From Candidatus Zixiibacteriota bacterium (GTDB taxonomy: Bacteria > Zixibacteria > MSB-5A5 > GN15 > FEB-12): a DNA stretch of 64,000 nt. The position numbers and the translations under genes were made by a program. The notes below the pieces were generated by a model. That model saw only the letters and a program-made list of their open reading frames with translations. It made no database searches and was not told where the DNA came from. The DNA is taken from the NCBI GenBank assembly GCA_040753875.1, contig JBFMDV010000032.1:1-64000 (forward strand), written 5' to 3'. Below are positions 12,095 through 47,954 of this stretch, in pieces (the stretch's first letter is position 1; every line of letters starts with the position of its first letter).

Positions 12095-12604
12095 TCAGGA
12101 ACGCTTTATCTTCCTGATTTGTTGGCTAAACTCATCGACAATCTTCTGGGTGATGAACGGGTTAACCTTTGATATTTCTTGAGCAACCAAAATAGCGCGC
12201 GCTACAGTCAATTCACTTTGAGCAACCAGTATTTTCATGGGTTCGAGGCCCCATCGTACCTGTACTCCTTCGTTTTGACATTCCCGTCGCAGCGCTTTGT
12301 CGTTCGTGAGACAACACCAGCCGTGTGATTTCGCGAGAAGCAGAGTCTCATGGTCGTCATAGGCAAGGGGCCCCCGTTTCTCAGCAGCCTCAAGTGCCAA
12401 TGCAATGTCTGGAATGACAATTTGGATGTGGATGCGGCGTGCCTGAGTTTCAGAGAGCTGCTTCACATTGTCGAGGGCGGCTTTACCGACATACACAGGC
12501 TGTACAGTTTGCGAGAAGAGCGACAGAATCGACAAGTCGGATTCGCAGTAGTCAATGAGGGCGCTGGAATCAACTATGAGAGACAGCTTCCAGTCTGTTT
12601 CCAC
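12095..12604 (-). CDS. PIN-domain protein, putative toxin ribonuclease
   Basis: The product has 169 residues, starting at a GTG that lies inside the end of the upstream gene (35-bp overlap). PIN-fold acidic positions are visible: IVDSSALIDYCESD near the N-terminus, AYDDHETLLLAK in the middle and LTNDKALRRE later. They are consistent with a Mg-dependent RNase. The tight overlap with an HTH-metallopeptidase gene resembles toxin-antitoxin layouts in which an Xre-ImmA/IrrE protein is the regulator partner. Toxicity is inferred from family and context. Confidence 0.75.
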   Translation of the reverse strand: METDWKLSLIVDSSALIDYCESDLSILSLFSQTVQPVYVGKAALDNVKQLSETQARRIHIQIVIPDIALALEAAEKRGPLAYDDHETLLLAKSHGWCCLTNDKALRRECQNEGVQVRWGLEPMKILVAQSELTVARAILVAQEISKVNPFITQKIVDEFSQQIRKIKRS

Positions 12605-13703
12605 TTTTTTCTTCTGCCCATGACGCGATTCTTTTCCGCATTTCGGGAAGCGGCAAGTCTAAGATCTCGCCCGCCCTGCTCTGAGTAATCTGCTGCTTCT
12701 CCACACCGACCCGCACGAGACGGTCAAGCCAATCAGTGACAAAATCCGACTGCTTGAGACCGTCCGGTTCAAAGGATTTCGGCTCCTTACCCGGATATCT
12801 CTGTTTGATGATTAATGGGATTTGGCTCCAGACCGTCACTTTGAGAATTCCTTGTTCGATCAGCCTATAGATGACCGCCTTGTAGCTGACGTGAAATATC
12901 CGTTTTACCTTGAGAATGCGGTTCCACGGGTCGAGACCATAGGTTTCCTGCCACTCCTGATCAAATCCGTTTTGTGGCATAAGGAAATGGCTTGCGAACT
13001 CGTCAGCTTCTTTCTCCTGCTTGTTGTCTTCCTCAACAATATCAACTTTGTAAGCGTCCAAGTGCATTACAAGATGGCCGAGTTCGTGAGCGGCGCTAAA
13101 TATCCATCGTTCGACAGGAATGCGGTCCCACACGTTTACAACAATCGCCGGGCCGCCGTCAGCCTGGCCGACGGACATACCAAAGAACCCATCGGACGCG
13201 AGCTCGTAGGGAAGCACTTTTATGCCGTTGGCGGCCAATAGCCCGGTGATATCGTGAACCGGCTCCTTTGCGTTCAAGCCCATTCGCTCTCTGACCAATT
13301 CTGCCGCCAGTACTGATCGGCGTTTTGGTGAGACACCTTTGAGTTCGTCAGAAATACCCGAGAGGGCATATGCCACTTTCTGCTTCTGTTCCCCCAACAA
13401 ATAATTGAAGTCCTCAAGCCACTTGGATACTCGTGCCAGAATATGATCTCTCCGTTTGAGCTTCTTCTGAGCACGGAATCTGACCGAGGATAGTTCTCTT
13501 ACTGGGGAAAGTAACTCTTGTACACCGACCTCCATTGCTCCAGCAACTTTGTAGAGGGTGTCCATCCTGGGACTGCCTCTGCCAGACTCAATGTTAGAAT
13601 AGGTCGGAAGTGAAATCTCCGCGCGCTTGGCCACTTCGAGTTGGGTTAGGCCGCGTTCGTGTCTAACTCTCTTAGCGTTTTTCGCTATCACAGCGGTTCT
13701 CAT
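12570..13703 (-). CDS. Xre-family HTH / ImmA-IrrE metallopeptidase regulator
   Basis: The product has 377 residues, with a strong AAAGGAGG upstream of its ATG. An Xre/Cro helix-turn-helix occupies residues about 1-65 (RHERGLTQLEVAKRAEISLP; TYSNIESGRGSPRMDTLYKV). An ImmA/IrrE-type zinc peptidase domain follows, with HELGHLVMHLD and the downstream EKEADEFASHFLMP segment. The C-terminus is a helical region that seems to contain a second DNA- or RNA-binding part. In this family the peptidase often cleaves a repressor in response to stress. Here it heads a two-gene operon with the PIN protein, and the palindrome at 13731-13759 is its likely own operator. Confidence 0.85.
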   Translation of the reverse strand: MRTAVIAKNAKRVRHERGLTQLEVAKRAEISLPTYSNIESGRGSPRMDTLYKVAGAMEVGVQELLSPVRELSSVRFRAQKKLKRRDHILARVSKWLEDFNYLLGEQKQKVAYALSGISDELKGVSPKRRSVLAAELVRERMGLNAKEPVHDITGLLAANGIKVLPYELASDGFFGMSVGQADGGPAIVVNVWDRIPVERWIFSAAHELGHLVMHLDAYKVDIVEEDNKQEKEADEFASHFLMPQNGFDQEWQETYGLDPWNRILKVKRIFHVSYKAVIYRLIEQGILKVTVWSQIPLIIKQRYPGKEPKSFEPDGLKQSDFVTDWLDRLVRVGVEKQQITQSRAGEILDLPLPEMRKRIASWAEEKSGNRLEAVSHS

Positions 13704-17534: not shown

Positions 17535-18158
17535 TCATTCACGGCCCCCACAATCATGACAGGCAGATGCCGAGACGAAGTCACATTTGTTAGATTGATC
17601 GGGGCAATACTTGCGAAATAGCCGATCAACACGCTTCTCCCATAGTGTCTTGTGTGTTGCCGGCTGAACACACATGTATTCTGCAAGTCCGTCTTTTCGA
17701 ATTAGTACTCTCTCAGCGAGCGGAAAGTACAGATGGTTTTCGTCACAAATGTGGATAGCGAGGAGAGTTTGAAATGCTTTCGCATTATCGATGAATCTTC
17801 GCCGCCATCCTCTCCGCTCAGCTCGGGCATCCTTCAATGCATGCTTCATCTCGCACACGAAGAGGCGACCCAAAAGATGCTGAATCCCCAATCTCTCTTG
17901 CATGCGCTTAAGTTGCCGATTTGCTGTTCGTTCCACTGCCGGGAACAGCAGTTCTTCTTCGCTGTGATGATGAATCTTGTCGCCATATTCGCTGAAGAAC
18001 CGGACTATCGTTTCGAGATATCCTGAAGGGACCAGGTGCCGACCGGCGAGACACTTTCGCATTGACTCAAGAGTCGACAAACTGGCCGTGATATGTTGGT
18101 GTTCTTCGACAAGCATCTGGATGAGAGTCTTGCGGTGCTCGGGCAACCTGTTCATCAC
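17535..18158 (-). CDS. hemerythrin-like HHE protein at the end of the nos operon
   Basis: The product has 207 residues. Iron-ligand positions of a hemerythrin four-helix bundle are visible: EEHQHITASL near the N-terminus, YGDKIHHHSEEELLFPAVE, a middle QHLLGRL, and HICDENHLYFPLAE. Spacing fits a diiron site binding O2 or NO. The start ATG overlaps the stop of the oxidase-like gene by four bases (ATGA), so it is the last gene of the nos operon and translationally coupled. In denitrification clusters such proteins are thought to sense, store or scavenge NO or repair iron-sulfur centres; this role is inferred from context. Confidence 0.8.
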   Translation of the reverse strand: MMNRLPEHRKTLIQMLVEEHQHITASLSTLESMRKCLAGRHLVPSGYLETIVRFFSEYGDKIHHHSEEELLFPAVERTANRQLKRMQERLGIQHLLGRLFVCEMKHALKDARAERRGWRRRFIDNAKAFQTLLAIHICDENHLYFPLAERVLIRKDGLAEYMCVQPATHKTLWEKRVDRLFRKYCPDQSNKCDFVSASACHDCGGRE

Positions 18159-19747
18159 GCTTCCTCCTGTATACGGGGAGTCGGTACATTGGCGTAGGCA
18201 AACTCTCCAACAGCATCCGGCACCACCTCATGAGGTCGTGACACTCCACCCAAAGTGCTCCGTGCCAATAGCCATATCGCACCGAGCAGGCCTGTCATGA
18301 GAACGACGGCACCAGCGGTTGATACCTTATGCATCATTTCGAATTGCGCCGGGTAGACGCTTAGTGCTTTTGGCAATCCACCCAGACCGTTGACGAGCAT
18401 AGGGAAGTACGTAGTCATGATCCCGATGACGATGCAGATGGCGACTGCACGTCCGGCACGAGGTGAAATGGTCCTTTGCATGATGACCGGCCACCAGTGG
18501 AAGAGGCCGGTCAGAAAAGAGAGGAAAACGAGGCCAAGGGCGATCAGGTGAAGATGACCGGTTGTCGTATAGCTGTCATGTAACATCAATCCAGTCGAGG
18601 GTATGGCGAGCATAATCCCCGCGAAGCCGCCTATGACGACGAAAATAGTCTGTAGCCCCGTAATGAGAATAGGGACTGATTTCCAACTTCTCACGCGAGA
18701 CAACATGATGAACCAGCTGAGGAGTATCAGCGAGATCGGGACGACGGTAAGCAAACTAAACAGACTGCCAGCCAGAGCCAGCGGCTCTGAATCTGTCGTG
18801 ACAAGCAAGTGCCTTCCCCACGCGATGAGACTGAACTGTCCCAGCATGATTCCGGCAACAATTAGTGCGCGGCGAGCAAACAGGACCGTGCCGGTGCGGG
18901 CAGCAAGTACCTCAAACGTAATCCCCAGTGCCGGCAGGAGAGTTGCAGAGGTGGCAGGACCGGCGTAAGCCCAAAACAGGTGTTGGTATTGAATGATGCC
19001 GTCACCTTCCAACAGCGAAAAAACAGGCGTCAGGCCGAAATGTTGAGAAGACAGCATGGTCAATGTGAAGAGGCGGATCGGGCTGACAATCAATACCACC
19101 AGTGATGAAACCAAGAAGAACCAAGCCAATATCGGGAGCTTCGACATAGGCAAAGTCCGATGCTTGCGGGATAGAATGGTCCGAGCAACCACGCAGTTGA
19201 CTATCAAAGTCGACGCTGCTACAAAAAACAGGCCGGCTATGAGCAGCTGGTACGTGCCGGTGGCGACAGAAGGTATGGTCATTGTCCAACCCGTGTCATA
19301 GGCGCCCAATTCAACCGCAACCACGACCGCGGTGGAGCCTAAGAGATGCACGATCCAACCGACCATGTTCCATCTTGGCATCGCCATGTCTCGCGCGCCG
19401 ACAGCCGACGGCAGGACAAAGTTGCCAATGACTGCCGGAATGAGAGGGATTAGCACGACGAAGGTCATCACTACCCCGTGCTGAGTTAGAATGTGCCCGA
19501 AGAACTGGCCGCTGAACAGGGTCGACGAAGCGCCCCATAGTTCAAGCTGCATGACCAGAGCTGCCGATGCGCCGACAAGCACGAACGCTCCAAACGTGAG
19601 CAAGTAGAGCAATGCGACTCTTTGTGAGTTGGCTGTTATCAGCCAGTTCACGAGATTCTTCCCGGATTGCCTTAACTGCATGGCTCCTTGTGATCTCCCA
19701 TGGTGAGGTCCTTTGTGTGAATGCTCCGAGCGAACCCGAAGCGCCAT
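18155..19747 (-). CDS. heme-copper oxidase subunit I homologue lacking two CuB histidines, in nos operon
   Basis: The product has 530 residues from the ATG at 19745-19747, right after the nosY stop (the frame is open further upstream). About twelve membrane helices align well with aa3-type subunit I. Low-spin heme ligands H90 (TQHGVVM) and H400, and the high-spin heme ligand H398 (TTTGHLHLIAL), are kept, as is GARDMAMPRWN. The canonical WFFGHPEVY is WAYAGPATS here, so the first CuB histidine is Gly263 and the cross-linked tyrosine is Ser267. The HH pair is R312-H313. The protein should therefore bind two hemes but not a normal CuB. O2 or NO reduction of the usual kind is unlikely; electron transfer between quinol or cytochrome c and NosZ is one speculation. 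No subunit II or NorC gene is present. Confidence 0.75.
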   Translation of the reverse strand: MALRVRSEHSHKGPHHGRSQGAMQLRQSGKNLVNWLITANSQRVALLYLLTFGAFVLVGASAALVMQLELWGASSTLFSGQFFGHILTQHGVVMTFVVLIPLIPAVIGNFVLPSAVGARDMAMPRWNMVGWIVHLLGSTAVVVAVELGAYDTGWTMTIPSVATGTYQLLIAGLFFVAASTLIVNCVVARTILSRKHRTLPMSKLPILAWFFLVSSLVVLIVSPIRLFTLTMLSSQHFGLTPVFSLLEGDGIIQYQHLFWAYAGPATSATLLPALGITFEVLAARTGTVLFARRALIVAGIMLGQFSLIAWGRHLLVTTDSEPLALAGSLFSLLTVVPISLILLSWFIMLSRVRSWKSVPILITGLQTIFVVIGGFAGIMLAIPSTGLMLHDSYTTTGHLHLIALGLVFLSFLTGLFHWWPVIMQRTISPRAGRAVAICIVIGIMTTYFPMLVNGLGGLPKALSVYPAQFEMMHKVSTAGAVVLMTGLLGAIWLLARSTLGGVSRPHEVVPDAVGEFAYANVPTPRIQEEA

Positions 19748-19751
19748 TCCC

Positions 19752-20543
19752 TTAAAGATCCTTGAATCGGAACTTGCGGATACCAATGAACAATGGAACG
19801 ATAATCCAGAGCCCCAAGGAAACCGTGGCGACGGTGACGCCCAGTGATGTTCCGAAGAACCGACTAAACACAGCACCCGTGTAACCCATAAGAGCTGCCC
19901 AATCGGTCTGAATGAGCAGGGTCACTCGCGCGAGGTCGATGGGATTGGCCATCGAGGCCAGGAGCAGCGGAGTCTCAAGCGGGTATTCCGAGAACGACAT
20001 GGCCGCCATGAGTACCAGACCGTCATAAATCAAGGCCGTGAAGAGCCAGACTGCGAGTGCGGAGGCGAGCCCCTTGCCACGATCATCGAAGATGATCGCC
20101 AGCAGAAAAGAGATAGACAGGAATATGATGGTCAGAAGAGAGCCGATCGTCAATAAGAGTGTCACGGAGGTCAATTGGCCGGTCGACCAATCGCCGAGGA
20201 TAGCAGTAGGAATGCCCACGCCCAATGCGAATCCGGCCACCAGAGCGACCGATAGTCCTCCAAACATGCCGAGAAAGACAGTCTTGCGCTCGACCGGTTG
20301 GGCTAACACCAGCTCTATGAATTCGCGTGAATTGTAGAAGTATATCGTGCCGAACACTGAGGACACCAACGGTATGAGGAAAAGGCACACACTCATGAGG
20401 CTGACCGCGACTTTAGCCGACTGTGCCTGCAAATGGAACAGGCCAACGGTCACTACGACAAAAAATGCGGTATAGAGTAGTCCCCAGCGATTCCGCGTGA
20501 GGTCCCTGATTGTATACCAGGCCAGGTGCAGTGTCAGCTTCAT
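19752..20543 (-). CDS. nosY: NosY, ABC permease for NosZ copper-site maturation
   Basis: The product has 263 residues and six hydrophobic segments. It begins MKLTLHLAWYTIRDLTRNRW and contains YFYNSREFIELVLAQPVER, characteristic of NosY/ABC-2-type permeases. It acts with NosF and periplasmic NosD to supply sulfur or copper species for the CuZ cluster of NosZ. Its start overlaps the nosF stop by four bases. It directly precedes the CuB-less oxidase homologue, which begins five bases after its stop, indicating one transcript. Confidence 0.9.
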   Translation of the reverse strand: MKLTLHLAWYTIRDLTRNRWGLLYTAFFVVVTVGLFHLQAQSAKVAVSLMSVCLFLIPLVSSVFGTIYFYNSREFIELVLAQPVERKTVFLGMFGGLSVALVAGFALGVGIPTAILGDWSTGQLTSVTLLLTIGSLLTIIFLSISFLLAIIFDDRGKGLASALAVWLFTALIYDGLVLMAAMSFSEYPLETPLLLASMANPIDLARVTLLIQTDWAALMGYTGAVFSRFFGTSLGVTVATVSLGLWIIVPLFIGIRKFRFKDL

Positions 20544-21250
20544 GCGGCACCCCGCTCAAGAAGGCGTGCCACGGCCACCTCGAGGCGCGGTTCGTCCGCT
20601 GCCAGTTTCAATTCACGGATCGATCCGGCAAAGCGAACTCGACCTTCAAGCAGAACCACCACATTGTCGGCGATTTCATCGAGATCGCTCATGATGTGAG
20701 TGGTGATAAGGATAGTTCGTTCCTTTTGTCTTAACGATTGAAACAACTCTTTGAGGCGAGTATTGGCGACCGGATCGAGTCCGGCAGTCGGTTCATCACA
20801 AATAAGCAGATCAGGATCGTACATACAGGCAAGCAGGACGCTCAGCTTTTGCCGGGTACCTCCTGACATCGCTCGGATGCGCTTCGACAATTCCGACTCA
20901 AGGCCGAACAGGTGAATCAATTCGGACTCCAATCGGACTTTCTCGTTCCGCAGACCTTTGACCACATCGATCGTCTCTCGTCCCGTCAGGTCCAGGGGAA
21001 AGCGGGCAATTTGCGGAACATACCCCAGAAACCTGCGGTAGTCACTCGAACCATTCAAGAGATATCCGTTTATGGTTATGCTCCCCGACGTCGGTTTGAC
21101 CAGTCCAAGCAGCGATTTCATTAGGGTGGATTTACCGGAGCCGTTTGGACCGATGATCCCAGTAACTTTGCCACGTTCAATCGACAGACTGATCTCATGG
21201 AGCGCCACAAAGCGACCATAACGTTTGCGCAAGCGGCTGATTTCAATCAT
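20540..21250 (-). CDS. nosF: NosF, ABC ATPase for NosZ maturation
   Basis: The product has 236 residues, a usual length for NosF. It shows Walker A GPNGSGKST (about residues 34-42), a signature region MSGGTRQKLSVLLA, Walker B LLICDEPTAGLDP and an H-loop TTHIMSD. It powers the NosY permease. It overlaps nosD upstream and nosY downstream by four bases each (ATGA), giving tight translational coupling. Confidence 0.92.
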   Translation of the reverse strand: MIEISRLRKRYGRFVALHEISLSIERGKVTGIIGPNGSGKSTLMKSLLGLVKPTSGSITINGYLLNGSSDYRRFLGYVPQIARFPLDLTGRETIDVVKGLRNEKVRLESELIHLFGLESELSKRIRAMSGGTRQKLSVLLACMYDPDLLICDEPTAGLDPVANTRLKELFQSLRQKERTILITTHIMSDLDEIADNVVVLLEGRVRFAGSIRELKLAADEPRLEVAVARLLERGAA

Positions 21251-22536
21251 GTTACCGGCCTCATGCGCGGTTTGTTGTCGACCAGCGCTTCAGGCGTTAA
21301 TGTTGGGATTATCCGTTCTGCCAAATTGAGAACATCGACCAAGAGACTTCGAACAAGGACCAACGTCGGGGGTTCCATTTCGACTAAGAGACTATACAGG
21401 CTTACCGGACGGAAGGGCTCGTCACCAAAGCCGTCCCGATTGAGATCAAAACCTCGGTATGGGCTCCAGTAATTGCCGGAGAAGCTGCTGAACGTCTGAC
21501 GACTATTGGTCGCCACCTGAAATGTGTTGTCGATAAAGTCATTTTGTTCTATCACGCTTTGCACGCAGTTGGCCATGATTCTGATAGCCCATCCATTGGC
21601 GGTGAAACAATTTCGCTCAATATGAACGCGGTCCGAGCCCTCCATATGGATACCGACAGAGTTGCGGGTGAATCGGTTGTCCAACACGCGGCTATCCTTG
21701 ATGTCCTTCAGGAGTAATCCATAGGACGCACCGCCCCAGTTGTCTTCAAAGACGTTTTCGAGCATTTCGACATCATCTGTATACATTACGGCAACACCCG
21801 CGCCGTTGCGCAGGAACCGATTACGTTCGTACCGGCAGCTGTCTGAGAACATGAAATGCAATCCGTATCTGAGATTCTGCTCGCTTGTGTTGTTCACAAT
21901 CACACTGTTGGTGACAAATTCGAGATAGATACCGTCACGGTGGCCTCGAATGACATTGTGAGTGACATCGATATCGGAGCAGTTCCACAGATGGATCCCA
22001 TTACCGACGGAGGTGAGTTCCTTTGACACTCCGGTGATCTCATTGTCGAGAATGCGGCAGTATCGCGACTTGGCCAGATAGATCGCAAAGAAATTGTCAG
22101 TGAATCGATTTCCTCGTATCTCGCAGTCCGTCGAGTTATTCACGAGGATAGCGGCATGTTCTTTCACAAAACTCACTGGTACGCCGCACAGCACAAAGCC
22201 CGAAACCGATGCGCCATCCGTGCTGAGTTCGAGAATCGGCCCTTGCCCGCGCGCATCAATGACTGGCCAGCCCTGACCGACCAACGTGATCCGGTTTGTG
22301 ATGTGTAGGCCGTACTCCTCATAGCGTCCAGCAGAAACTCGAATGGTATCCCCCGAGACAGCCTGCTCTATCGCGGCTGCGATCGTCTGTACGTGACCGG
22401 TAGGGTGTACTGAAATGACAGCAGCGTTGCCGGCCGAAAAGCAGAAGATGAAAACTGCGCCGCCACGCCGGACGCAGCCGATCAGAAACTGCATAGTCTG
22501 AAGTAAGCGCCAGGGAATGCGCAACCGCCGGTGCAT
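21247..22536 (-). CDS. nosD: NosD, periplasmic beta-helix protein for CuZ assembly
   Basis: The product has 429 residues. The ATG at 22534-22536 shares a base with the upstream stop (TGATG) and has GGAG before it; a longer start at 22560 is possible. A signal peptide (FLIGCVRRGGAVFIFCFSAG) is followed by a right-handed parallel beta-helix with repeated N-x-F-x-x-N/D turns (NRFTDNFFAIYLAKS; NVFEDNWGGASYGLLLKDI; NDFIDNTFQV). The ending SFSGNYWSPYRGFDLNRDG is typical of NosD. It delivers material exported by NosFY to NosZ in the periplasm. Confidence 0.9.
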   Translation of the reverse strand: MHRRLRIPWRLLQTMQFLIGCVRRGGAVFIFCFSAGNAAVISVHPTGHVQTIAAAIEQAVSGDTIRVSAGRYEEYGLHITNRITLVGQGWPVIDARGQGPILELSTDGASVSGFVLCGVPVSFVKEHAAILVNNSTDCEIRGNRFTDNFFAIYLAKSRYCRILDNEITGVSKELTSVGNGIHLWNCSDIDVTHNVIRGHRDGIYLEFVTNSVIVNNTSEQNLRYGLHFMFSDSCRYERNRFLRNGAGVAVMYTDDVEMLENVFEDNWGGASYGLLLKDIKDSRVLDNRFTRNSVGIHMEGSDRVHIERNCFTANGWAIRIMANCVQSVIEQNDFIDNTFQVATNSRQTFSSFSGNYWSPYRGFDLNRDGFGDEPFRPVSLYSLLVEMEPPTLVLVRSLLVDVLNLAERIIPTLTPEALVDNKPRMRPVT

Positions 22537-23645
22537 CACTGTTTCTCCGTCAGCTTCCATGTCTCGGCAACCAGTTTCTTCACTGCATTCCAGTCCAGGA
22601 CGGCACCGCCTACCGATGCAATCAGGGCGACGGCATCAGACTGGGAGGCGACCGCAACCAGTCCGACACCCATTGGGCTTTTCTGTTTTTCGGTAGCGAC
22701 AACCACGGCTACAGACACTTCAAGAAAAGTGCCGGGATGTCCGAAGTCAGTGACCCACCGTGAATGAACCTGCCCTATCGTCTGTTTCGATTTCATATCG
22801 TCAGCTGCAAGACATTCGATTGAATCGTATTTGTATATCTTCCCCTTGCCAGTGATCGATTCCGTGCCGAATTTCTCATCGGCAATGGTCATCTTACAGT
22901 AAGCACACTGGTCCGATCCATATCGTATGGGTGACGGCCCAGAAGGGCTGCAGGAGACAGCCAGACCGAGGAGAAGACATGCCAGCATCCCGGCGGCAGG
23001 GCCGGTCTTCGGCGGAACCACACGGCGCACTCGACTGAATTCATAAAACCAGACCAACCCTCCCAACACAAAGGAGGCCATAGCAAACCATCCCCCGACT
23101 CCGGGAAGAGAGATGGCCTTGAAGTTCAGGAGCTTCTTGGAGCCGATCAACGGGGGCTGATAGCTCATTCCTGGGACCTTGATAATGGCATGGTGGGTAT
23201 CCAGGTTGTGTCCGTAATCGTACCCCCAAAGATAGAAATCAATAAGACCCGCTGTCGCGACTGCCAGAAAGAGCACGAGCCAGATCATCAAAAGCATCCG
23301 TCTCCCCACAGCCGCTACGAGCAAGCCTGCGATCATCACACCGCGCATGATCCACGGCATGATACTCAGTTCCGGAATCGATTCTGGTTTGATCTGTTTC
23401 ATGCCGATGTAGTGATTGAGATTATTGATCTTGTTCAGATCACCAGGGTTCTGTCCCTGCATCTGGTTAATCCATATTTCCAGTCCGAGCCCTTCGGGAT
23501 ACTGGGGAGCATCGAGAGATATCTCCCAGAGAGGGAAGAAGTAGGTGAGGGACAACAGCAAGGCAGCGACCACCAGAAGCAGACGTGACAATAGGTGCAT
23601 GCGGCCTTGCCGTGCTCCAGCAGTACTTTCCTGGCTCGATTGCAT
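22536..23645 (-). CDS. nosL: membrane protein fused to NosL copper chaperone
   Basis: The product has about 369 residues from the ATG at 23643-23645 (GAGG upstream). The frame is open to 23813, inside nosZ, and an in-frame GTG near 23696 is an alternative. Residues about 15-240 contain four membrane helices and a loop (YFFPLWEISLDAPQYPEGLG; NLNHYIGMKQI), resembling the separate small membrane protein seen beside nosZ in clade II clusters, perhaps a NosB counterpart. A fifth segment, MLACLLLGLAVSC, looks like a lipoprotein signal inside the chain. It is followed by NosL proper (DQCAYCKMTIADEKFG; KIYKYDSIECLA), with the C-x-x-C-x-M copper site. NosL carries Cu(I) to NosZ. The fusion is unusual. 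Confidence 0.8.
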   Translation of the reverse strand: MQSSQESTAGARQGRMHLLSRLLLVVAALLLSLTYFFPLWEISLDAPQYPEGLGLEIWINQMQGQNPGDLNKINNLNHYIGMKQIKPESIPELSIMPWIMRGVMIAGLLVAAVGRRMLLMIWLVLFLAVATAGLIDFYLWGYDYGHNLDTHHAIIKVPGMSYQPPLIGSKKLLNFKAISLPGVGGWFAMASFVLGGLVWFYEFSRVRRVVPPKTGPAAGMLACLLLGLAVSCSPSGPSPIRYGSDQCAYCKMTIADEKFGTESITGKGKIYKYDSIECLAADDMKSKQTIGQVHSRWVTDFGHPGTFLEVSVAVVVATEKQKSPMGVGLVAVASQSDAVALIASVGGAVLDWNAVKKLVAETWKLTEKQ

Positions 23646-23713
23646 AGCAGGCCTCACGGAGTCCACGGGATCGCCTTTGGCAAGATCAGGTACCACGTAA
23701 TTCTCTTTCGTTG

Positions 23714-25630
23714 TCAGGTTGACACACGAATCCAGCCCTGCATCTCCTGATGGAGCGCTGAACAGAAATCGGTGCAATAGAACGGGATCACTCCGGCCTG
23801 TTTTGGCTCCCACAGAATAGTGCGCGTCTGCCCAGGCATGATCAAGAGCTCAGAGTTGTTTGCACCCATTACACTGAAGCCGTGCGGCGCGTCCCAATCC
23901 TGTTCCAAATTGGTAACGTGGAAATACACTTTATCGCCGACCTTGATACCCTCAATGTTGTCCGGCGCAAAGTGGGTGCGAATAGTGCTCATATACACAT
24001 GAACGTTCTTTCCATCCCGTTCGACTCTGGCCTGACCTTCGGCCTGAATTGCGAACGGGTTTTTGTTGTCTTCGATCGAATACCAGCGAACGGACTTGTC
24101 CTTGATCAAAGTCACCGGACAGGCCTGTGCGTAGTGCGGCTCGCCAATCGTTGGGAAATCGAGCAGGAGCTTCATCTTATCGCCGGTAATGTCAATCAAT
24201 TGCGCCGACTGAGTCAGCTCCGGACCAGTTGGCAGGTACCGGTCTTTGGTGATCTTATTGAGCGCCACCGCATACTTGCCGTATGGTTGTTTGGTGTCGC
24301 CACCGGGGATCATCAAGTGACCAATTGAGTAGTACGTGGGAATGCGGTCAACTACTTCCCAGGTCCCCAGCTTCCATTTGACGATTTCTGAAGACAGAAA
24401 CATTGACGTATAGCCGAATCCTTGTCCGTCAAACTCCGTATGGAGCGGGCCGAGGCCTGGTTCCTTCACTTCACCGGCCAACACAGATTCGTATTTAACG
24501 ATTGGAATGCCGTCGAGCTCTCCTTCAAATGCTTTGGCCTCAACGGCAGATTTGAATTTGCTGAACGAATGGACGGGAATCAGAGCGGCAAGTTTGCCGC
24601 CAGCAACAATGTACTCGCCCGAAGGATCCACGTCGCAGCCATGTGGCGACTTGGGTGTAGGAATGTAGTAAACCAGACCGGGATTGTCCTTAGCCACCAG
24701 GACCGGGACCTCGGATATTACCTCGCTTTGAGCGACATCAGCATGGTCCATATAATTGTGATAGTGAGGCGCCTTCCAGATCTGGCCTTTCCCCTGCGCG
24801 ATCAGTTCTTCGGCCAGCTTCCAATTGACCGCAGCGACGAAATCCTTGTCGTTTTGCGACGCATTCACTTCGAGCTGGGTATTGGCCTGCTCGGAGTTAT
24901 AGGAGCTGAAGAACGACCAGCCATACGACGGTCCCTTGCCGGAACGTGATAGGTCGTAATTGATCCCTGGCACCAGGATCTGGAATGCGATCTTCATTCG
25001 CCCGGTCGCAGAATCGACTTTGATATAGGAGATTGTCCCTTTGAAATTCTGTTTGTACGAACTGATCGGAACGTCTTTCTGGGGAATCGGAACGCTAAAG
25101 CGGGTCGAGGCCACCACATACTCGGTGTTGGGAGTCAAATACGGAGAACCATGGTTGCCGCCCGAGTTTGGGATCTCAATAGTCTCAACCGTTTCAAACG
25201 TGGTTAAATCGAGTCGCGCGATGCGAGGCGTATTGTTGCCATTGATGAAGAGCCAGCGTCCATCGGTCTGACCGTCAGTTACGGAGAGTTGGGGATGGTG
25301 CGCATCATCCCAGGGAATAAAACCATGTGTAGTCATCAGGAGTGGCTTGGTCTCCTCGGAGTATCCGTATCCTTTCTCCGGGTCCTGGCTGAATACCGGT
25401 ATGACCCGGAAGAGCCGTCCGGAAGGGAGGCCATACACAGATACTTGACCGCTAAATCCGCCCGACATGAAGGCGTAAAACTCGTCGTAGCTGCCAGGTG
25501 CAACGTAGACTTTGGTGGCGGCATCTCCGAATCCGCCGGCCTCCTGCTTTTGTGAGCAGCCGGCTCCTCCTAACACGACGGCTATTATGAGCACTCCGGC
25601 GTTACATAGGAAACGGCTCAGTTGATTCAT
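23714..25630 (-). CDS. nosZ: NosZ, Sec-type (clade II) nitrous oxide reductase
   Basis: The product has 638 residues from the ATG at 25628-25630 with GAGGAGG upstream. The signal sequence lacks twin arginines and ends VLGGAGC, so export is by Sec and lipid attachment is possible. CuZ histidine contexts are present: DDAHHPQ, GGNHGSPY, HYHNYMDHADVAQSE, SPHGCDVD, PLHTEFDGQG, SIGHLM, GEPHYAQ. The C-terminal cupredoxin carries the CuA motif YCTDFCSALHQEMQGW. The protein reduces N2O to N2 with electrons from a cytochrome c, here probably the one encoded 42 bases upstream. No nosR, nosG/H or Rieske-cytochrome b gene is in the window. Confidence 0.95.
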   Translation of the reverse strand: MNQLSRFLCNAGVLIIAVVLGGAGCSQKQEAGGFGDAATKVYVAPGSYDEFYAFMSGGFSGQVSVYGLPSGRLFRVIPVFSQDPEKGYGYSEETKPLLMTTHGFIPWDDAHHPQLSVTDGQTDGRWLFINGNNTPRIARLDLTTFETVETIEIPNSGGNHGSPYLTPNTEYVVASTRFSVPIPQKDVPISSYKQNFKGTISYIKVDSATGRMKIAFQILVPGINYDLSRSGKGPSYGWSFFSSYNSEQANTQLEVNASQNDKDFVAAVNWKLAEELIAQGKGQIWKAPHYHNYMDHADVAQSEVISEVPVLVAKDNPGLVYYIPTPKSPHGCDVDPSGEYIVAGGKLAALIPVHSFSKFKSAVEAKAFEGELDGIPIVKYESVLAGEVKEPGLGPLHTEFDGQGFGYTSMFLSSEIVKWKLGTWEVVDRIPTYYSIGHLMIPGGDTKQPYGKYAVALNKITKDRYLPTGPELTQSAQLIDITGDKMKLLLDFPTIGEPHYAQACPVTLIKDKSVRWYSIEDNKNPFAIQAEGQARVERDGKNVHVYMSTIRTHFAPDNIEGIKVGDKVYFHVTNLEQDWDAPHGFSVMGANNSELLIMPGQTRTILWEPKQAGVIPFYCTDFCSALHQEMQGWIRVST

Positions 25631-25671
25631 TGGAATCCTCCTCGTAGGATTTCTCATTGTGTAAGTTGTGC

Positions 25672-26208
25672 CTAATTGCCCGGCGGAGGTGGCGGCGTGC
25701 CAAACCCCGGCTGCTGTTCGATGGATACGGCCGGCTTGTCAGCCTCAGAGCGCAGGAAGTTCAGCAGCTCTTCAGCGTTTTCCCTCGTAATCCCCTGTAT
25801 GGTCATGTATTGGGCGTATTGGGCGACGAGCTTTCTTCCGTCCGGGTGAAGTTTGCCCATTTGCTCTGGATTCAATATCTGATTGAGTATGTATTCCGGA
25901 GAGCGGCGCTTGGACACGTCGCGAAGCATGGGACCGGTCTTCTTGTGATCGAGATAGTGGCACGTCGCGCACTTCTTTATGAATATCTCTCGTCCGGAGG
26001 CAGCCTTAGTAGGATCAACCGGCACCACTTGGATTTCTTCGATGATAGGTCCAATGCCGTGCTCAGTTTCCCAACTGGTGAGGCGCCCGGTGGCCCAGCG
26101 GGCCTGGCGCTCGACGTCTGTCTCGGGTTTCGACGAACAGCCGCTTACAAACCAGCTCACCATGAGCATGGCAAGCACGGCTATGAACAGGGGAAGCAGT
26201 CTTTTCAT
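25672..26208 (-). CDS. lipoprotein monoheme cytochrome c, probable NosZ electron donor
   Basis: The product has 178 residues, with GAGG before its ATG. A lipoprotein signal (SWFVSGCSS) is followed by a helical spacer and one CxxCH heme site (KKCATCHYLDHKKTGPML). The distal methionine is probably in QYMTIQGI. A Pro-rich tail (GFGTPPPPPGN) ends it. It is the first gene of the nos operon, 42 bases before nosZ. This matches the cytochromes (NosC-type) that deliver electrons to clade II NosZ. The operator-like motif at 26267-26296 lies about 60 bases upstream. Confidence 0.88.
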   Translation of the reverse strand: MKRLLPLFIAVLAMLMVSWFVSGCSSKPETDVERQARWATGRLTSWETEHGIGPIIEEIQVVPVDPTKAASGREIFIKKCATCHYLDHKKTGPMLRDVSKRRSPEYILNQILNPEQMGKLHPDGRKLVAQYAQYMTIQGITRENAEELLNFLRSEADKPAVSIEQQPGFGTPPPPPGN

Positions 26209-26342: not shown

Positions 26343-26777
26343 TCAGTTGCGAAGTGAGTTCGTTGCTAATTCTTTGGCCAGGCTTGCCATTGTTGTTTTC
26401 TCAAACATTCTATGCAGATCTTGTCTGCGTTTCGCCCAAGCGTCGTGGAGCGGACAAGGTGTCTTTTCGCCGCAGCCAGGGAGCCCCAATGCGCATCCTT
26501 CGAAAAGTGCCATTCCGTCTACGGCTGCTATCACATCCACCAATGTGATCTCCTTCGCCGGTCGAGCCAATCCCACGCCTCCGTTGGGACCCCGAAACGA
26601 TTCCATTATTTTTGCTTCCGTAAGAAGCTGCATGATCTTGGTCAGGAAGTGAAACGAGAGGTCCAACTCTTCGGAGAGCTCCCGAATCGGGATAAATTTA
26701 CGGCCGTCCTTGATTTCCTTGGTGGTCACCAGGAGCGAGGCTCGAATCGCATATGTACAACCCTTTGAAAACAGCAC
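26343..26777 (-). CDS. Rrf2-family Fe-S transcriptional regulator (NsrR/IscR type)
   Basis: The product has 144 residues from the GTG at 26775-26777, which gives the family-typical start MLFSKGCTYAIRA; a longer frame to 26822 would run through the promoter. Winged-helix positions IPIRELSEELDLS and FLTKIMQLLTEA are clear, as is FRGPNGGVGLARP. Three cysteines in CALGLPGCGEKTPC match the Fe-S ligands of NsrR/IscR-like sensors, which respond to NO or redox. It lies next to the nos operon in the same direction, separated by 134 bases containing a motif shared with its own promoter. It is probably a repressor of the nos genes released by NO or low Fe-S status. Confidence 0.85.
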   Translation of the reverse strand: MLFSKGCTYAIRASLLVTTKEIKDGRKFIPIRELSEELDLSFHFLTKIMQLLTEAKIMESFRGPNGGVGLARPAKEITLVDVIAAVDGMALFEGCALGLPGCGEKTPCPLHDAWAKRRQDLHRMFEKTTMASLAKELATNSLRN

Positions 26778-26780
26778 AAT

Positions 26781-26854
26781 CAGTTCCAGATTTAGGAGTC
26801 TTATATCTGTATATATCGACATTTTGGGTGTTCGTCAAGAGTATTTTGACTCTT
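26781..26854 (-). promoter_or_regulatory. Rrf2 gene promoter with two operator-like elements
   Basis: On the minus strand TTGACG (26838-26833) and TATATA (26815-26810) are 17 bases apart. The motif shared with the nos promoter covers 26809-26781, across the expected start site. A second inverted repeat (AAGAGT, 6-base loop, ACTCTT; 26837-26854) touches the -35. This arrangement suits tight autorepression. Confidence 0.6.
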
Positions 26855-41338: not shown

Positions 41339-43072
41339 TCACTGATTCAGAAGCAGTTTATCGTATTCCTTGTTGAACTTATCGGACGGTGGATTTGTGG
41401 CTGCGGCCAACGCATACTCCGCCTTGGCATCGGCGGCCCGTCCCATCTCCAGATATATCTGTCCGAGTTTCCAGTGGCTTTTCCAGTTATCGGAATCAAA
41501 CTGAATGGCTTTCTTGAGCAATTCGACGGCTCGATCCTGATGATTGAGTTTTTCTTCGAGGATAGCCAGGTTGTGGTACGCTTTCGCGTAATCCGGTTTC
41601 AGCTCGATCGCTTTCAGGTAGTCCTGTTTGGCCGATTCCAGACTATCGAGTTCCTTGCGGGCATCCGCCCGATTGTAATATGCCTCCGCGCTGTGGGTCA
41701 GGCCGACCAGCCGGTTGTAGAAGATGAGCGCGGAGTCATTCTCACCCAGGCGCGAATAGACGGTGCCGAGGTTGTTGAGCGCTTTGAGATTGACCGGCTC
41801 CTGGTCGAGAAGGCGGTGATAGGCCTCGGCAGCCTGGGGCAGTCGTTCCGCGCGCGAATTGGCGATACCCAGGTTGAACAGCGCCCTCAGATTCTCCGGG
41901 TCAAGCGTGGTGACTTCCTCGAGGTGCACGACGGCAGAATCATACAGTGCCCGTTCGAGAAAGATCAACGCCAGGTTGTAGTGCGCTTTGGAGAAGCTGG
42001 GGCGTTGTGCGATCGCCCGCTGATAGTGCAGCATGGCGTTCGCCGTGTCTCCCTTGTCAGCGTACAGGAGCGCCAGGTTGAAATACGCCTCATAATAGGT
42101 TGTGTCAAACTGTATAGCCTTGCGATACGCGTCAATTCCCTCATCGCGGCGGCCCAGCTTGTTCAAACTGATGGCCAGATTGAACCATCCTTTGGGGTCG
42201 TTCGGCTCCAGTGCCAAAGCCTGTTGATAGGCCGCCACGGCTTCATCCGGTTTGCCGATGCGACTGTTACAGATTCCCAGATTTGAATACAACTGCTTCT
42301 TTTTGAGTCCCAATGATGCCGACCGCGTGAACTCCCTGATGGCATCGTCGTACTTCCCCTGGTCCATGCGAGACAGCGCGAGGGCGTAGCGAGCCTCGAT
42401 ATGACTCGGGCGCAGACGAAGGGCGCTGCGGTAGGCAGCCTCGGCGCGTGGAACATCCCCCAGATGTTTGTATGACAACCCCAGCATATAGAAGGCTGCG
42501 GCTGCTTCCTCGGTCCGCTTGACCTCAGTTGCGCGAGTCAGCCAGTTGCGTGCTTCGTCGTATCGACCGATGTCATAGTACTGCCTGCCGAGGCTGTAGA
42601 GCGCACGGAAGTAATTCGGGCGAATTGCCGCGGCGCGACTGTACTCACTAATGGCATCTTTGACACGACCTGCCCGGTGATACGCAATACCCAGATTGTA
42701 ATGTCCGCGGGCATACGCGGAATCCAGCACGAGGGATCGTTTGAACAAGGTGATCGCGGAATCCAGATGCCCTTCTGACAGCTGTACCACACCCAGGTCG
42801 TTGAGTCTGATGGCTTCGGGGGGTACACCTGTCGTGTCGGCAATTTCCGTATCTGCGACAACATCCGTGTCTCCAACGGCTGCCGGCTCCGGATCCGCAG
42901 CCGAATCACTCAAGGCAACCGGTGCCTTCGCGGGATTCGCCATTGGCGCGGAACCGTCGATGCGAACGATCTCTGTTCTGGCGTCCGCTACCGACCCTTG
43001 CCGTACGACGGCTATCGTAACAACTGTGGCGCATATCAGCCACGCGGCTATCTGGAGCAGTGTGTATTTCAT
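41339..43072 (-). CDS. periplasmic tetratricopeptide-repeat protein with 13-14 TPRs
   Basis: The product has 577 residues. An N-terminal membrane anchor (LLQIAAWLICATVVTIAVV), an acidic Ala/Pro linker of about 70 residues and then consecutive 34-residue TPR units fill the rest (YARGHYNLGIAYHRAGRVKD; PKGWFNLAISLNKLGRRDEG; YAKAYHNLAILEEKLNHQDR). TPRs bind partner proteins. Its start overlaps the ATP-grasp stop by four bases, which ties it to the ligase and the 7TM protein; it is a likely scaffold on the periplasmic face. There is no enzymatic motif. Confidence 0.85.
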   Translation of the reverse strand: MKYTLLQIAAWLICATVVTIAVVRQGSVADARTEIVRIDGSAPMANPAKAPVALSDSAADPEPAAVGDTDVVADTEIADTTGVPPEAIRLNDLGVVQLSEGHLDSAITLFKRSLVLDSAYARGHYNLGIAYHRAGRVKDAISEYSRAAAIRPNYFRALYSLGRQYYDIGRYDEARNWLTRATEVKRTEEAAAAFYMLGLSYKHLGDVPRAEAAYRSALRLRPSHIEARYALALSRMDQGKYDDAIREFTRSASLGLKKKQLYSNLGICNSRIGKPDEAVAAYQQALALEPNDPKGWFNLAISLNKLGRRDEGIDAYRKAIQFDTTYYEAYFNLALLYADKGDTANAMLHYQRAIAQRPSFSKAHYNLALIFLERALYDSAVVHLEEVTTLDPENLRALFNLGIANSRAERLPQAAEAYHRLLDQEPVNLKALNNLGTVYSRLGENDSALIFYNRLVGLTHSAEAYYNRADARKELDSLESAKQDYLKAIELKPDYAKAYHNLAILEEKLNHQDRAVELLKKAIQFDSDNWKSHWKLGQIYLEMGRAADAKAEYALAAATNPPSDKFNKEYDKLLLNQ

Positions 43073-43947
43073 ATCAACCTGTCTCTCAAACCGGCCTGGT
43101 TGGCAATCTGTATATTCAGACCTGGTCGGGCATTCACCTCGAGTACCATGGGACCGTGATCACGGTCACACACGAAATCGACGCCGATATAGCCAAGGCC
43201 CACGATATCGCTGATTCGCGCACCGTAGGTTAGCATGTCCCGAAAGAACGGCACCGGTCTTCCTTTGAGCGGTTCGTGTGTCTCCGGATGATGCGTTATG
43301 ACGTTGTTTCGGTGCGATCCATGAAGTGAACATCCGGTGTCCAGATCGATACCGACGCCCAGTCCGCCCTGGTGCAGGTTGGCCTTCCCGCCGGACTCAC
43401 GGGTCGGCAGGCGGAGCATCGCCATGACGATCTGTTCCTGGCGATAGATGAGCCGAACATCCCCCACTCCTTCTATCTCCGGGGGAATGAACGCCTGGAT
43501 ACCGGGATGATTGACCAGTTTGTGCTCGAAAAAGGCGGTATCGGCCAGGTTGTCGAGCGAAAACGCGCCGTTCAAAATTTGCATGATATGGAAGTCGATA
43601 TCCTCCCTGGTGACCGGCTCGCCGGAAATGTAATACCGGCCATCACGTCTGGTCACCAGGACGATCCCGTTGCCGCCGTAGCCGGTGTTTGGCTTAACAA
43701 CGAAATGGTCAACGCCGGCCAGTTTGTCTTCCCAGTTGCGGAGCGACGGTGGGTCCGCCACAACATGATAGGTGACAGCGGTCGGAATGTCGTTCTGCTG
43801 GAGCAAACGTTTGCACAGCAGTTTGTCATCAACGTTGGGAAAGCAGTTCCGGCGGTTGTAAGGATAAATCATATCCAGGTTGCGAGCGTTAATGCCCATC
43901 ACACCGATGCCCGAAGGTATGGGGAAGAGATTCTTAGGCAATCTCAT
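43069..43947 (-). CDS. RimK-related ATP-grasp ligase (alpha-L-glutamate ligase-like)
   Basis: The product has 292 residues. ATP-grasp features: phosphate-binding loop VVKPNTGYGGNGIVLV (about residues 84-99), GVGDVRLIYRQEQIVMAMLR, SGGKANLHQGG and the metal-binding end VLEVNARPGLNIQIAN. This matches the cytoplasmic RimK-like group that is usually encoded next to an inactive transglutaminase fused to seven membrane helices, as here (four-base overlap). By family it should join an amino acid, often glutamate, to a peptide or peptide-like acceptor. The acceptor is unknown. Confidence 0.87.
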   Translation of the reverse strand: MRLPKNLFPIPSGIGVMGINARNLDMIYPYNRRNCFPNVDDKLLCKRLLQQNDIPTAVTYHVVADPPSLRNWEDKLAGVDHFVVKPNTGYGGNGIVLVTRRDGRYYISGEPVTREDIDFHIMQILNGAFSLDNLADTAFFEHKLVNHPGIQAFIPPEIEGVGDVRLIYRQEQIVMAMLRLPTRESGGKANLHQGGLGVGIDLDTGCSLHGSHRNNVITHHPETHEPLKGRPVPFFRDMLTYGARISDIVGLGYIGVDFVCDRDHGPMVLEVNARPGLNIQIANQAGLRDRLI

Positions 43948-45551
43948 CGCGATTCCTGTCTGAGAATATGCCTAAAACGGAGCAGTTCCATCAGGCGGAA
44001 ACCGCTGTAACGGCCAATATAGATGTACAGCGCGACCACCAACAGGATCGTCTCGGGAAAACTTATCACTACGGCCTGCAGGAATCGGGAGGCCATCAGA
44101 GCAAAAGCACAGGTGGCGACGAGAAGAGTAAAGAAGGCCATTTTTACGGCTTTCATCATGCCGGACTCTTCGGCGATGAGCGAGAATCGCTCGACCGTAA
44201 GGGTCATGATGACCATGGGGAAGAGAGCCACACGCGCCAGATCGAGAAACCCCATCGAAACTCCCAGTCCAGTCAGCAACAGGATGAACAGCACGACGGC
44301 CGAGAGTATCACCGCGAGCCGCGGCGTATGGAGCAGTTGCAGCCGGTTGAGGAAGTACCTGACCCCGGCTCCGAACAAGACGATGAGGGTGAACAAAACG
44401 GCTCCATTCAGAAGCCCGGTGTCGCGCCAGCCGATGGCTATCAATGCCGGCATGAAGGTGCCGAACGTTTCTATCCCGATGATATTTCGGAAGAGTACCA
44501 CTGCCAGTACGCCGATCGGAAGCATGATGATGATCCGCAGCAGCTCCAATGATATGGCGGATCGTTTGAAGGTCGCCCAGACGTTCAGGATGTCGAGCGG
44601 ATGGCTTTTCAGACCGGTCAGGCCGGCCAGATTCGAAACGAGCCGTTTGCGAAGATTGAAATAGAATTTGAAATTGATGTCGCGGGTGTGTGTGATGAAC
44701 GGCTGCTCATTGTAATACAAGATGAGGTAGTTCGACGGTATCTCCGCGAAATACTTGTTCGTCGGGCAGAATGGCACCCAGTACCCCCGAACATACAGGT
44801 CTACCCAGATATGGGTAGCGGTGGATTGCCCGGCTTCGAGTATTTTCCCGCCGACGAGCCGTGCGGGAATGCCGGCATGCCGAGCCAGTGCGACCATCAG
44901 ACGTGATTTGCCGCCGCATGACGCTTCACCGATATGATAGGCAGTGAGGGCGTCAGTCTGACCGGAGTAGTTCACGTAGCGGAGCCCGTAGGTGACGAAC
45001 TGATAGATCCGGTCGATGTTGTCCAACAGGGTCCGGCTTTCGGCAATGCCGAGTGAATCCGCCAGTGCCGCGATCTCCGGACTGTCGGCCTGAATGGCCG
45101 AATCGGCCAACAGAAATTGCGCCACGCTGTCTGGTATCGGCTGCACCGCGGGAAGAGTCGAGTCAATCAGGAAGCGCTGATTGCGCGTCATGACGGTGGC
45201 CGTGTAACCAAGTCGCCGCCGGCCGACCGTCCCCTGACTTGCCCAGGAGCCGCGCCGATTTCCGCCCTCCTCGACGACCTCGAACTTGAGATCGGCCGAA
45301 TTGAACGCTTCATCGCTCACTGTCTGATTCGGCAGGCTCTGTGGCAGCGCCATGGAGACTTCCACTGGGCTGCCGTGACCGTCGAATTCCAACACCGTCT
45401 CCAACAAATAGCTCTCGCTCTGGATCACGGCATTCAGATTATAGCCCAGGTAGGTGATCTTATAGAACGCCATGACTGAGGCCGCGATCACCAGCAGAGC
45501 GGGGATGACGGCGACAGCCAGGCGGGAGCTGTGGCGTACGATCACGGGCAT
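43944..45551 (-). CDS. transglutaminase-like domain fused to 7TM helices
   Basis: The product has 535 residues. One N-terminal helix, an extracytoplasmic domain and then a transglutaminase fold follow: Cys in GEASCGGKSRLMVALARHAG and His in TATHIWVDLYVRGYWVPFCP. The position normally occupied by the catalytic Asp (DPT) is Cys (CPTN), so the triad is incomplete. The last 200 residues form about seven membrane helices. Families of this type (inactive transglutaminase-7TM) pair with RimK-like ATP-grasp genes and are thought to bind peptides made by them. It overlaps its neighbours on both sides. Confidence 0.87.
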   Translation of the reverse strand: MPVIVRHSSRLAVAVIPALLVIAASVMAFYKITYLGYNLNAVIQSESYLLETVLEFDGHGSPVEVSMALPQSLPNQTVSDEAFNSADLKFEVVEEGGNRRGSWASQGTVGRRRLGYTATVMTRNQRFLIDSTLPAVQPIPDSVAQFLLADSAIQADSPEIAALADSLGIAESRTLLDNIDRIYQFVTYGLRYVNYSGQTDALTAYHIGEASCGGKSRLMVALARHAGIPARLVGGKILEAGQSTATHIWVDLYVRGYWVPFCPTNKYFAEIPSNYLILYYNEQPFITHTRDINFKFYFNLRKRLVSNLAGLTGLKSHPLDILNVWATFKRSAISLELLRIIIMLPIGVLAVVLFRNIIGIETFGTFMPALIAIGWRDTGLLNGAVLFTLIVLFGAGVRYFLNRLQLLHTPRLAVILSAVVLFILLLTGLGVSMGFLDLARVALFPMVIMTLTVERFSLIAEESGMMKAVKMAFFTLLVATCAFALMASRFLQAVVISFPETILLVVALYIYIGRYSGFRLMELLRFRHILRQESR

Positions 45552-47083
45552 GTCGGGTTGGTCGTTGCGTCGAGTTGAGTTTGGGCAGCGGCCGCCTTGC
45601 TGCAGTTCGGGAATTGCATCACCACCGTGCAGTACTCCGCGTGAGCCGACGGGTCATTCACACCGAACAGCTTCTGATCGCTCTTGCCGGCCCAGTAGTG
45701 CGCCTCGCCGGCCTGTTTGTCGTTCGGATACGTGGTGTAATAGGTCACGTACTGGTTCTTGGCGTTCACGTAGTCGGCATCGTTGTAATATGCAGAGGCG
45801 ATACGGTAGGTCGCATCAGGTACGAAGTCGTTGGTCGGATAGGCGGCGATATACGCCTGGTACATGGTAACGGCGGTTGGAAAGTTGTCCATGTTGTACT
45901 CACAGCTCGCCGCATAGAACCTGGCATGGGGAGCGAGGGTGGAATTCGGAAACTTGATGTACACGGAATCGAAATCAGCCTGCGCCTGCGTATACGAATA
46001 GCTTTCCACATTGTACTTACAGTGCGCCCGATAATACCAGGCATCGGCGAGCTTGTCACCCGTTGGATAGCTGGTAATGCTGGTTGAGAGTGAAGCGAGC
46101 GCCTGCACGTAATCTTCCTGATTGTAGTAGCTCATCCCTTTGTAAAAGCTCGCCTTGGCCGCCTCACGGGTCGTGGGATATGACGTCAGCAGCTTATTGT
46201 ACTGGGTCAGAGCGTTGGTGTACTGGTCATGCACGTAATACAGGGATGCGGCATTGTACAAAGCACCGGGGATATCGATCGAACCCGGGTAGTTCGTTTC
46301 CACCGCCAGGTAGGCGTTGATCGCCGGCGTGACGTTTCCGAGCGCTTCATTCTCCACGCCGACGCGATATTGCGCCTTGGAACCGACGTAGGAACTTGGA
46401 TAATTGGTCACCACGAACTGAACATCCGACAGCGCGCCGGCATAATCAAGCTTCTGATCCTTGTAATACCCGCGCCAATAGTACGCATCCGGCACCAGCG
46501 TGTCTGCGGGGTACGCGGAGACCAACAGGCTCAGGTTGTTGATGGTAGAATCGTATTGGTTAGTCTGCCCGAAAGCGAGTGCGATGCGATATCGCGACGA
46601 CGCGGCGTACTTACCGCTGGGGTTGGCCGTGATGAGCGATCGAAAGCGGGCGATCGCCGAATCAAATTTGTTATACGTGTAGAAGCGCATCGCCTCGCCG
46701 AAGAGACGCCCCTCGGTGTCGGCGCTGGCCGGCAGGGTTAGAAGCGGCGCCGCAATGCTCTGTCCGGCCGAAGTGATCGAAATCCCACCGGCAGTCTGGT
46801 CGGTGTAACCGGCTTTCGATGCGGTCAGTGTATAGGTGCCATAGGGAACCCCGACGATCGTATAGTTGCCTGCGGCGTTGCTCGCGCCCACAATGCTTGT
46901 GCCGGACACGAAGATGAAGACACCCGAATAGTTGCCCGTACCGGCCAGATGTACGGTACCGGAGATCGTGCCTGAGGGGACCAGGTCGATGTTGACGAAA
47001 GTAGTGTCAGCCAGTGCGGAAACGGCAAGCACCATCAAGCCGGTGAGCACGACTGCGAATTGGATGGAACGACGGTATAACAT
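45542..47083 (-). CDS. secreted carboxypeptidase-regulatory-like plus tetratricopeptide (YbgF/BamD-like) protein
   Basis: The product has 513 residues from the ATG at 47081-47083 with AAGGAGAG upstream; a longer frame to 47230 has no signal peptide at its start. The signal peptide is FAVVLTGLMVLAVSALAD. Residues about 25-110 are a CarboxypepD_reg-like beta-sandwich (SGTVHLAGTGNYSGVFIFVS; YTLTASKAGYTDQTAGG). The rest consists of tetratricopeptide-like units with the YP-x-S/T pattern of outer-membrane lipoproteins such as YbgF (FRSLITANPSGKYAASSRYR; AGEAHYWAGKSDQKLFG). It is probably a periplasmic scaffold for the operon. Confidence 0.82.
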   Translation of the reverse strand: MLYRRSIQFAVVLTGLMVLAVSALADTTFVNIDLVPSGTISGTVHLAGTGNYSGVFIFVSGTSIVGASNAAGNYTIVGVPYGTYTLTASKAGYTDQTAGGISITSAGQSIAAPLLTLPASADTEGRLFGEAMRFYTYNKFDSAIARFRSLITANPSGKYAASSRYRIALAFGQTNQYDSTINNLSLLVSAYPADTLVPDAYYWRGYYKDQKLDYAGALSDVQFVVTNYPSSYVGSKAQYRVGVENEALGNVTPAINAYLAVETNYPGSIDIPGALYNAASLYYVHDQYTNALTQYNKLLTSYPTTREAAKASFYKGMSYYNQEDYVQALASLSTSITSYPTGDKLADAWYYRAHCKYNVESYSYTQAQADFDSVYIKFPNSTLAPHARFYAASCEYNMDNFPTAVTMYQAYIAAYPTNDFVPDATYRIASAYYNDADYVNAKNQYVTYYTTYPNDKQAGEAHYWAGKSDQKLFGVNDPSAHAEYCTVVMQFPNCSKAAAAQTQLDATTNPTCP

Positions 47084-47138
47084 GAATCTCTCCTTATTGC
47101 CTTTGTACTTGGGACCCCGACACTTGCTTTCTCGTGTG

Positions 47139-47651: not shown

Positions 47652-47954
47652 CTATATCGTAAAATGTAGTCTGATCAATGGGTTTGAAACGCTGACCACG
47701 TCAACCACGTTCCCATTGTTTCGGATTTCCTGGACAATTGTTCCGTTGGCGAAAGGCAGGCGACCGGGAGCGCGGAGATAAGAGTCTGTAACCATCGAGG
47801 ATATTCCTGTCTTCGCACACACCAACAATGTCTTTTCCTTCAACTTGTTTTCCGACCTGCCGGAGATGGACCCGCTTGGCGGATGCGTTTACGGGCGAGA
47901 ATCACCGCATCTCGGACCGGAAAACAGAGTCAGAAATAATCTCCGTTCGTACAC
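47652..47954. other. intergenic gap between the two long minus-strand operons
   Basis: About 300 bases with no convincing gene, repeat or terminator. It presumably holds the promoter of the dockerin-like gene, but no clear -35/-10 pair was found. Confidence 0.4.

Follow-up and report, generated by a model that had tools for sequence, protein, structure and literature searches.

A family of oxidase subunit I homologues without a canonical CuB site, encoded in clade II nos operons

In the biological N2O sink the key enzyme is nitrous oxide reductase (NosZ), whose CuA domain is homologous to subunit II of the oxidases. We know of no described family of the oxidase superfamily that keeps the heme ligands while losing the metal of the B site as a rule. 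The closest described systems depart from the canonical site in other ways. Putative NO dismutases, which are qNOR-like, have one of the FeB histidines replaced by Asn (PMC3413370), and eNOR is recognized by a diagnostic Gln at the position of the Tyr, with a cupredoxin subunit II alongside (PMC8756737). These two groups show that the site can be altered in enzymes that are still presumed to be catalytic. Here, we describe a protein that keeps the hemes' ligands, has lost most of the CuB site, and is encoded together with NosZ.

The gene lies in a window of 64,000 nucleotides, by which we mean the whole stretch of DNA that was analysed, in a nos operon whose genes are all on the minus strand. 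The operon is headed by an Rrf2-family regulator (26343..26822; PF02082, 5.9e-26), followed by a lipoprotein cytochrome c (25672..26208; PF00034), nosZ (23714..25657; TIGR04246, 928 bits), a gene in which a NosB-like membrane part is fused to NosL (22536..23813; PF05573 at residues 300-413), nosD (21247..22560; TIGR04247, 401 bits, above cut-off), nosF for the ABC ATPase (20540..21250), and nosY for the ABC-2 permease (19752..20543; PF12679), an order that is conserved in the relatives. The N-terminal part of the nosB-nosL fusion aligns with separate NosB-like genes of these relatives. A Sec-type nosZ accompanied by nosB, nosL, and nosDFY identifies this as a clade II nos operon. Its NosZ is probably a lipoprotein and has an intact C-terminal CuA ligand motif, CTDFCSALHQEM. 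Behind nosY come the oxidase-like gene, encoding a protein of 530 aa that we call P0001 (18155..19747), and a translationally coupled gene for a hemerythrin (HHE) protein (17535..18158; PF01814, 4.5e-15), which has a homologue in G064. The P0001 reading frame (ATG at 19747, stop at 18155) begins 4 bp past the nosY stop codon, and its last codon overlaps with the hemerythrin start codon (TGATG), which places it within the nos operon, near the 3' end. We found no gene for subunit II or III in the operon, where the CuA domain is carried by NosZ only. Elsewhere in the window, there is a toxin-antitoxin-like pair made of an HTH/IrrE-peptidase gene and a short downstream partner that is PIN-like by eye and has no Pfam match (12095-13703), a cluster encoding 7TM-transglutaminase, sugar-transfer ATP-grasp, DUF3541, and TPR proteins (41339-49043), and, further along, an ORF of 2653 aa without Pfam matches (55479-63440).

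P0001 matches the full length of the COX1 model (PF00115, E 1e-72) and the chains of solved COX1 structures (E 2e-46). Its AlphaFold2 model, built on an alignment of 22 sequences (pLDDT 80, pTM 0.83), aligns over its whole length with mammalian and bacterial oxidase subunit I (TM 0.87, 8d4t_N). P0001 is, as modelled, an oxidase subunit I of 12 helices with the full COX1 fold. We mapped the ligands by alignment to mouse COX1 and to 71 canonical COX1 sequences, and these alignments bear out the residues that had been predicted. All three heme ligands are kept: the low-spin ligand H90 (bovine H61; 19478..19480), the high-spin ligand H398 (H376), and the low-spin ligand H400 (H378), the last two at 18548..18556. 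Two of the three CuB histidines are gone, with G263 (18959..18961) at the position of H240 and R312-H313 (18809..18814) at that of H290-H291, so that only H291 is kept, as H313. The cross-linked Tyr244 is S267 (18947..18949). The K-channel Lys K319 is also lost and the propionate arginines are changed (R438 is K460 and R439 is A461), while D91 (D120) and N98 (N127) are retained. All 71 canonical sequences keep the heme and CuB ligands, Y244, K319, R438, and R439. One detail had to be corrected: the substitutions had been read against GHPEVY, and the nearest ordinary oxidases of P0001 read YSHPAVY, so that P0001 probably descends from an oxidase that lacked E242. As possible replacements for the CuB histidines we considered H196 and H473, which are invariant in the family and lie outside the heme sites; neither of them falls in the CuB pocket in the alignment.

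P0001 therefore lacks several features of a functional O2 reductase, namely the three CuB histidines, the cross-linked Tyr, K319, and an operon-encoded subunit II with CuA. Where the metal site of NO reductases or NO dismutases has three FeB histidines, or two histidines and an Asn, P0001 has a single His. Judged from its residues, it is strongly supported that this subunit I homologue has no workable CuB site and no longer reduces O2 or NO.

The loss of CuB recurs beside clade II nosZ. Searching 132 genomes of the phylum for such copies, we found six more, each in the corresponding slot behind nosY (G008, G030, G007, G028, G064, and G084). The seven nos-linked copies thus come from seven genomes and seven genera, all in clade II nos operons of the same type. 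G064 belongs to another family of the class and shares the whole operon, with a NosZ 87% identical, and the copy of G084 is very divergent. In the order window, G008, G030, G007, G028, G064, and G084, the residues at H240 are G, G, N, N, N, G, and H; those at H290 are R, Q, Q, Q, Q, Q, and Q; those at H291 are H, N, H, H, H, H, and H; and those at Y244 are S, Y, L, L, L, L, and Y. Hence, no copy keeps all three CuB ligands and none keeps H290. K319 is missing from all seven, and R439 is lost too. The low-spin ligands H90 and H400 are invariant in the seven copies, even at 27% identity, and the high-spin ligand H398 is kept in six, with a Gln in G064. More broadly, of the 127 positions fixed in the 71 canonical oxidases, only 20 are unchanged throughout the seven copies; positions of structural Gly, Pro, and Trp are kept while the metal and proton sites drift. 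A homologue with the canonical motif at the same operon position, which would have pointed to a single decayed gene, was not found among these genomes, and COX1 matches at other loci of the phylum keep the HH pair wherever the motif was checked. Two of the loci have additional genes: in G028 a gene for a TonB-dependent receptor separates nosY from the CuB-less gene (L035:8528-10420), and in G084 the CuB-less gene is directly followed by genes for a second Rrf2 regulator, a hemerythrin, and a qNOR of the ordinary kind (L136:12339-15640).

Six of the copies, all except that of G084, form a clade in the tree (support 100/99). Its sister (97/91) is a CuB-less protein of G013 that is encoded outside any visible nos operon. 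A single origin of all seven nos-linked copies is neither rejected (AU p 0.30) nor established, because the branch of G084 is very long. Since G084 keeps two of the three CuB histidines and the Tyr, it may stand at an earlier stage of the loss or have been recruited separately. The G013 protein (G013:C70, L105:7810-9309) is COX1-like, has S and E-H at the CuB positions, and is encoded beside a ferritin-like gene; a fragment of nosZ lies on a different contig of the same genome.

A CuB-less protein was found in 8 genomes, all of them within the 14 of 132 that have nosZ or a fragment of it (hypergeometric 1.6e-9; counted by genus, about 3e-8; both values without correction for kinship), and the CuB-less form was not found in any of the searched genomes of the phylum without nosZ. 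Among the nos operons of this layout complete enough to be judged, 7 of 8 have the gene, the one without it being that of G063. Three operons with Rieske, cytochrome b, and cytochrome c genes (G053, G111, and G116; genes named by eye) have no COX1-like gene. They belong to a different group of NosZ, so this complementary pattern is confounded by ancestry. Outside the phylum, we found no COX1-like gene near nosZ in 40 nos loci of Bacteroidota and Gemmatimonadota, in a search that recovered 6/6 control loci and included a few loci that were truncated or had no recognized nosY. Across 1107 genomes of Acidobacteriota, Gemmatimonadota, Bacteroidota, and Planctomycetota no score exceeded the canonical level, in a scan that scored few candidates and would miss a divergence like that of G084. 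A scan of viral contigs gave no match, and two degenerate patterns run against a genome collection matched mainly canonical oxidases. A Phycisphaerales cox operon (L100:9965-11095) encodes a subunit I that reads HPLIW and GGQH, with a CuB His and the Tyr replaced; the sequence of this gene is interrupted by a stretch of N. We found no prior description of a CuB-less, nos-linked COX1 family in the literature searched, which lay mainly outside subscription journals.

Is the gene a functionless leftover? The CuB-less protein does evolve faster than the compared nos genes (50% identity to G008, against 62-86%), as expected if it were the decaying remnant of an oxidase. Yet it is intact in seven genera, and its position and coupling are conserved. 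Furthermore, fourfold-degenerate sites are saturated between the window copy and its relatives (26-35% identical), and codon positions 1 and 2 remain 43-68% identical, a combination that indicates purifying selection on a protein without CuB. Given this selection and the recurrence, we reject the decayed-gene reading, to which we give almost no credence. We are highly confident that a CuB-less, selected, nos-linked family exists, and the best explanation of the gene is a selected, repurposed oxidase subunit I, a pseudo-oxidase on a scaffold of the diheme type.

Which function is being selected is less clear. The low-spin heme ligands are the most tightly constrained residues and the CuA domain of NosZ is a homologue of subunit II, so that, from the residues kept, electron transfer or redox docking would be the simplest reading. 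Hence, we tentatively propose, with a probability of about 0.4, that the protein is an electron relay serving NosZ as an auxiliary route. The pseudo-oxidase would lie in the membrane beneath NosZ, which is probably lipid-anchored, and the lipoprotein cytochrome c. Electrons from this cytochrome or from the quinol pool could enter it and reach the CuA domain of NosZ by way of the low-spin heme, either for turnover or for re-activation of the copper centres. Such a relay fits the invariance of H90 and H400, the constant slot after nosY, the intact CuA of NosZ, the lack of subunits II and III in the operon, the restriction to genomes with nosZ, the loss of CuB, K319, and R439, and the absence of the gene from the operons with Rieske and cytochrome b. 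The loss of R439, which in ordinary oxidases lies at the contact between CuA and heme a, also counts against it, as does the fast evolution of the protein. The electron supply of the carriers is a further difficulty. The host encodes an ordinary aa3 oxidase (C27), 28% identical to P0001, beside an alternative complex III cluster (ActC/D/E/F), and the same arrangement is present in the five other carriers checked (six of six with the host). Electrons should thus pass from quinol to cytochrome c without the CuB-less protein. Since the gene is moreover dispensable in G063 and in other phyla, as the 40 nos loci indicate, the pseudo-oxidase cannot be the sole electron input of NosZ. The original prediction of a conduit that replaces a missing quinol dehydrogenase therefore holds for the membership in the nos operon and is weakened for the replacement. 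A bolder version, in which the CuA domain of clade II NosZ takes the place of subunit II in a membrane-bound NosZ-oxidase hybrid complex with subunit I as its dedicated relay, is possible and somewhat unlikely.

Other roles must be weighed against the relay. The hemerythrin-domain genes that recur beside the CuB-less gene may point to a role as a nitric-oxide guard: an open high-spin heme could bind NO or O2 as a sensor or scavenger and, together with the hemerythrin-type protein, protect the copper sites or signal. H398 is kept in 6/7 copies, and a hemerythrin-domain gene directly adjoins the CuB-less gene in the window, G064, G030 (of the ScdA/RIC type), G007, and G028; in the last two it is a convergent DUF438-HHE-PAS gene, with a short ORF between in G007. 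In G084 the hemerythrin gene is close by, with the qNOR and the second Rrf2. However, G064 has a Gln at the high-spin heme ligand and yet keeps its hemerythrin gene, G008 has no adjoining one, and the invariant feature of the family is the pair of low-spin ligands rather than the high-spin one, so we regard a guard as unlikely. The constancy of these ligands also exceeds the needs of a scaffold or assembly factor, whose subunit I surface would dock the CuA domain of NosZ at the membrane and aid its anchoring or copper loading, the heme being structural. The subunit I fold retained in the model, the proximity to the NosDFY maturation genes, and the persistence of structural Gly, Pro, and Trp while metal and proton sites drift would all suit a scaffold, but NosZ is probably lipid-anchored already and related nos operons mature it without the CuB-less protein; this role, too, seems rather improbable.

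Finally, the protein could be a reductase or dismutase of gases whose B-site metal has changed and is held by the remaining His and by Gln or Asn, as in NO dismutases. The single His-to-Asn change of the latter (PMC3413370) comes close to breaking the rule, assumed in the original prediction, that all reductases of the superfamily need three CuB/FeB histidines, and G084 departs from the canonical site at H290 alone, which is Gln, and keeps H240, H291, and the Tyr. Against this, the window copy offers only Gly, Arg, and His, and G008 only Gly, Gln, and Asn; the family has no invariant residue aligned there that could serve as a substitute ligand, and K319 is lost in 7/7. We consider a changed metal very unlikely.

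If the pseudo-oxidase is a relay serving NosZ, this family would be a case in which evolution has parted the electron-transfer half of an oxidase from its catalytic half, and it bears on how electrons reach the clade II N2O reductase. It is also an annotation trap, since the protein reads as a cytochrome c oxidase. Compared with the subunit I of aa3-type oxidases (A-family, YSHPAVY), such as that of the host, P0001 has the same 12-helix fold and the same three heme ligands at 28% identity, but has neither the CuB ligands, Tyr244, and K319 nor adjoining subunits II and III, and sits in a nos operon. The Rieske/cytochrome b/c module of G053, G111, and G116 is likewise a membrane electron-transfer module in a nos operon, which is the role proposed here for P0001, but its proteins are unrelated, and no operon of the phylum was seen to combine it with the COX1-like gene. 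eNOR, likewise a protein of denitrification, resembles P0001 in that its subunit I is oxidase-like and has the Tyr replaced; the nos-linked family differs in having S, L, or Y at this position and in the loss of CuB histidines. The NO dismutases resemble it in that they, too, are superfamily members of nitrogen-oxide metabolism in which a ligand of the B metal is replaced, but they belong to the qNOR branch, have a single His-to-Asn change and a proposed catalytic role, whereas the nos-linked family mostly loses two of the three ligands.
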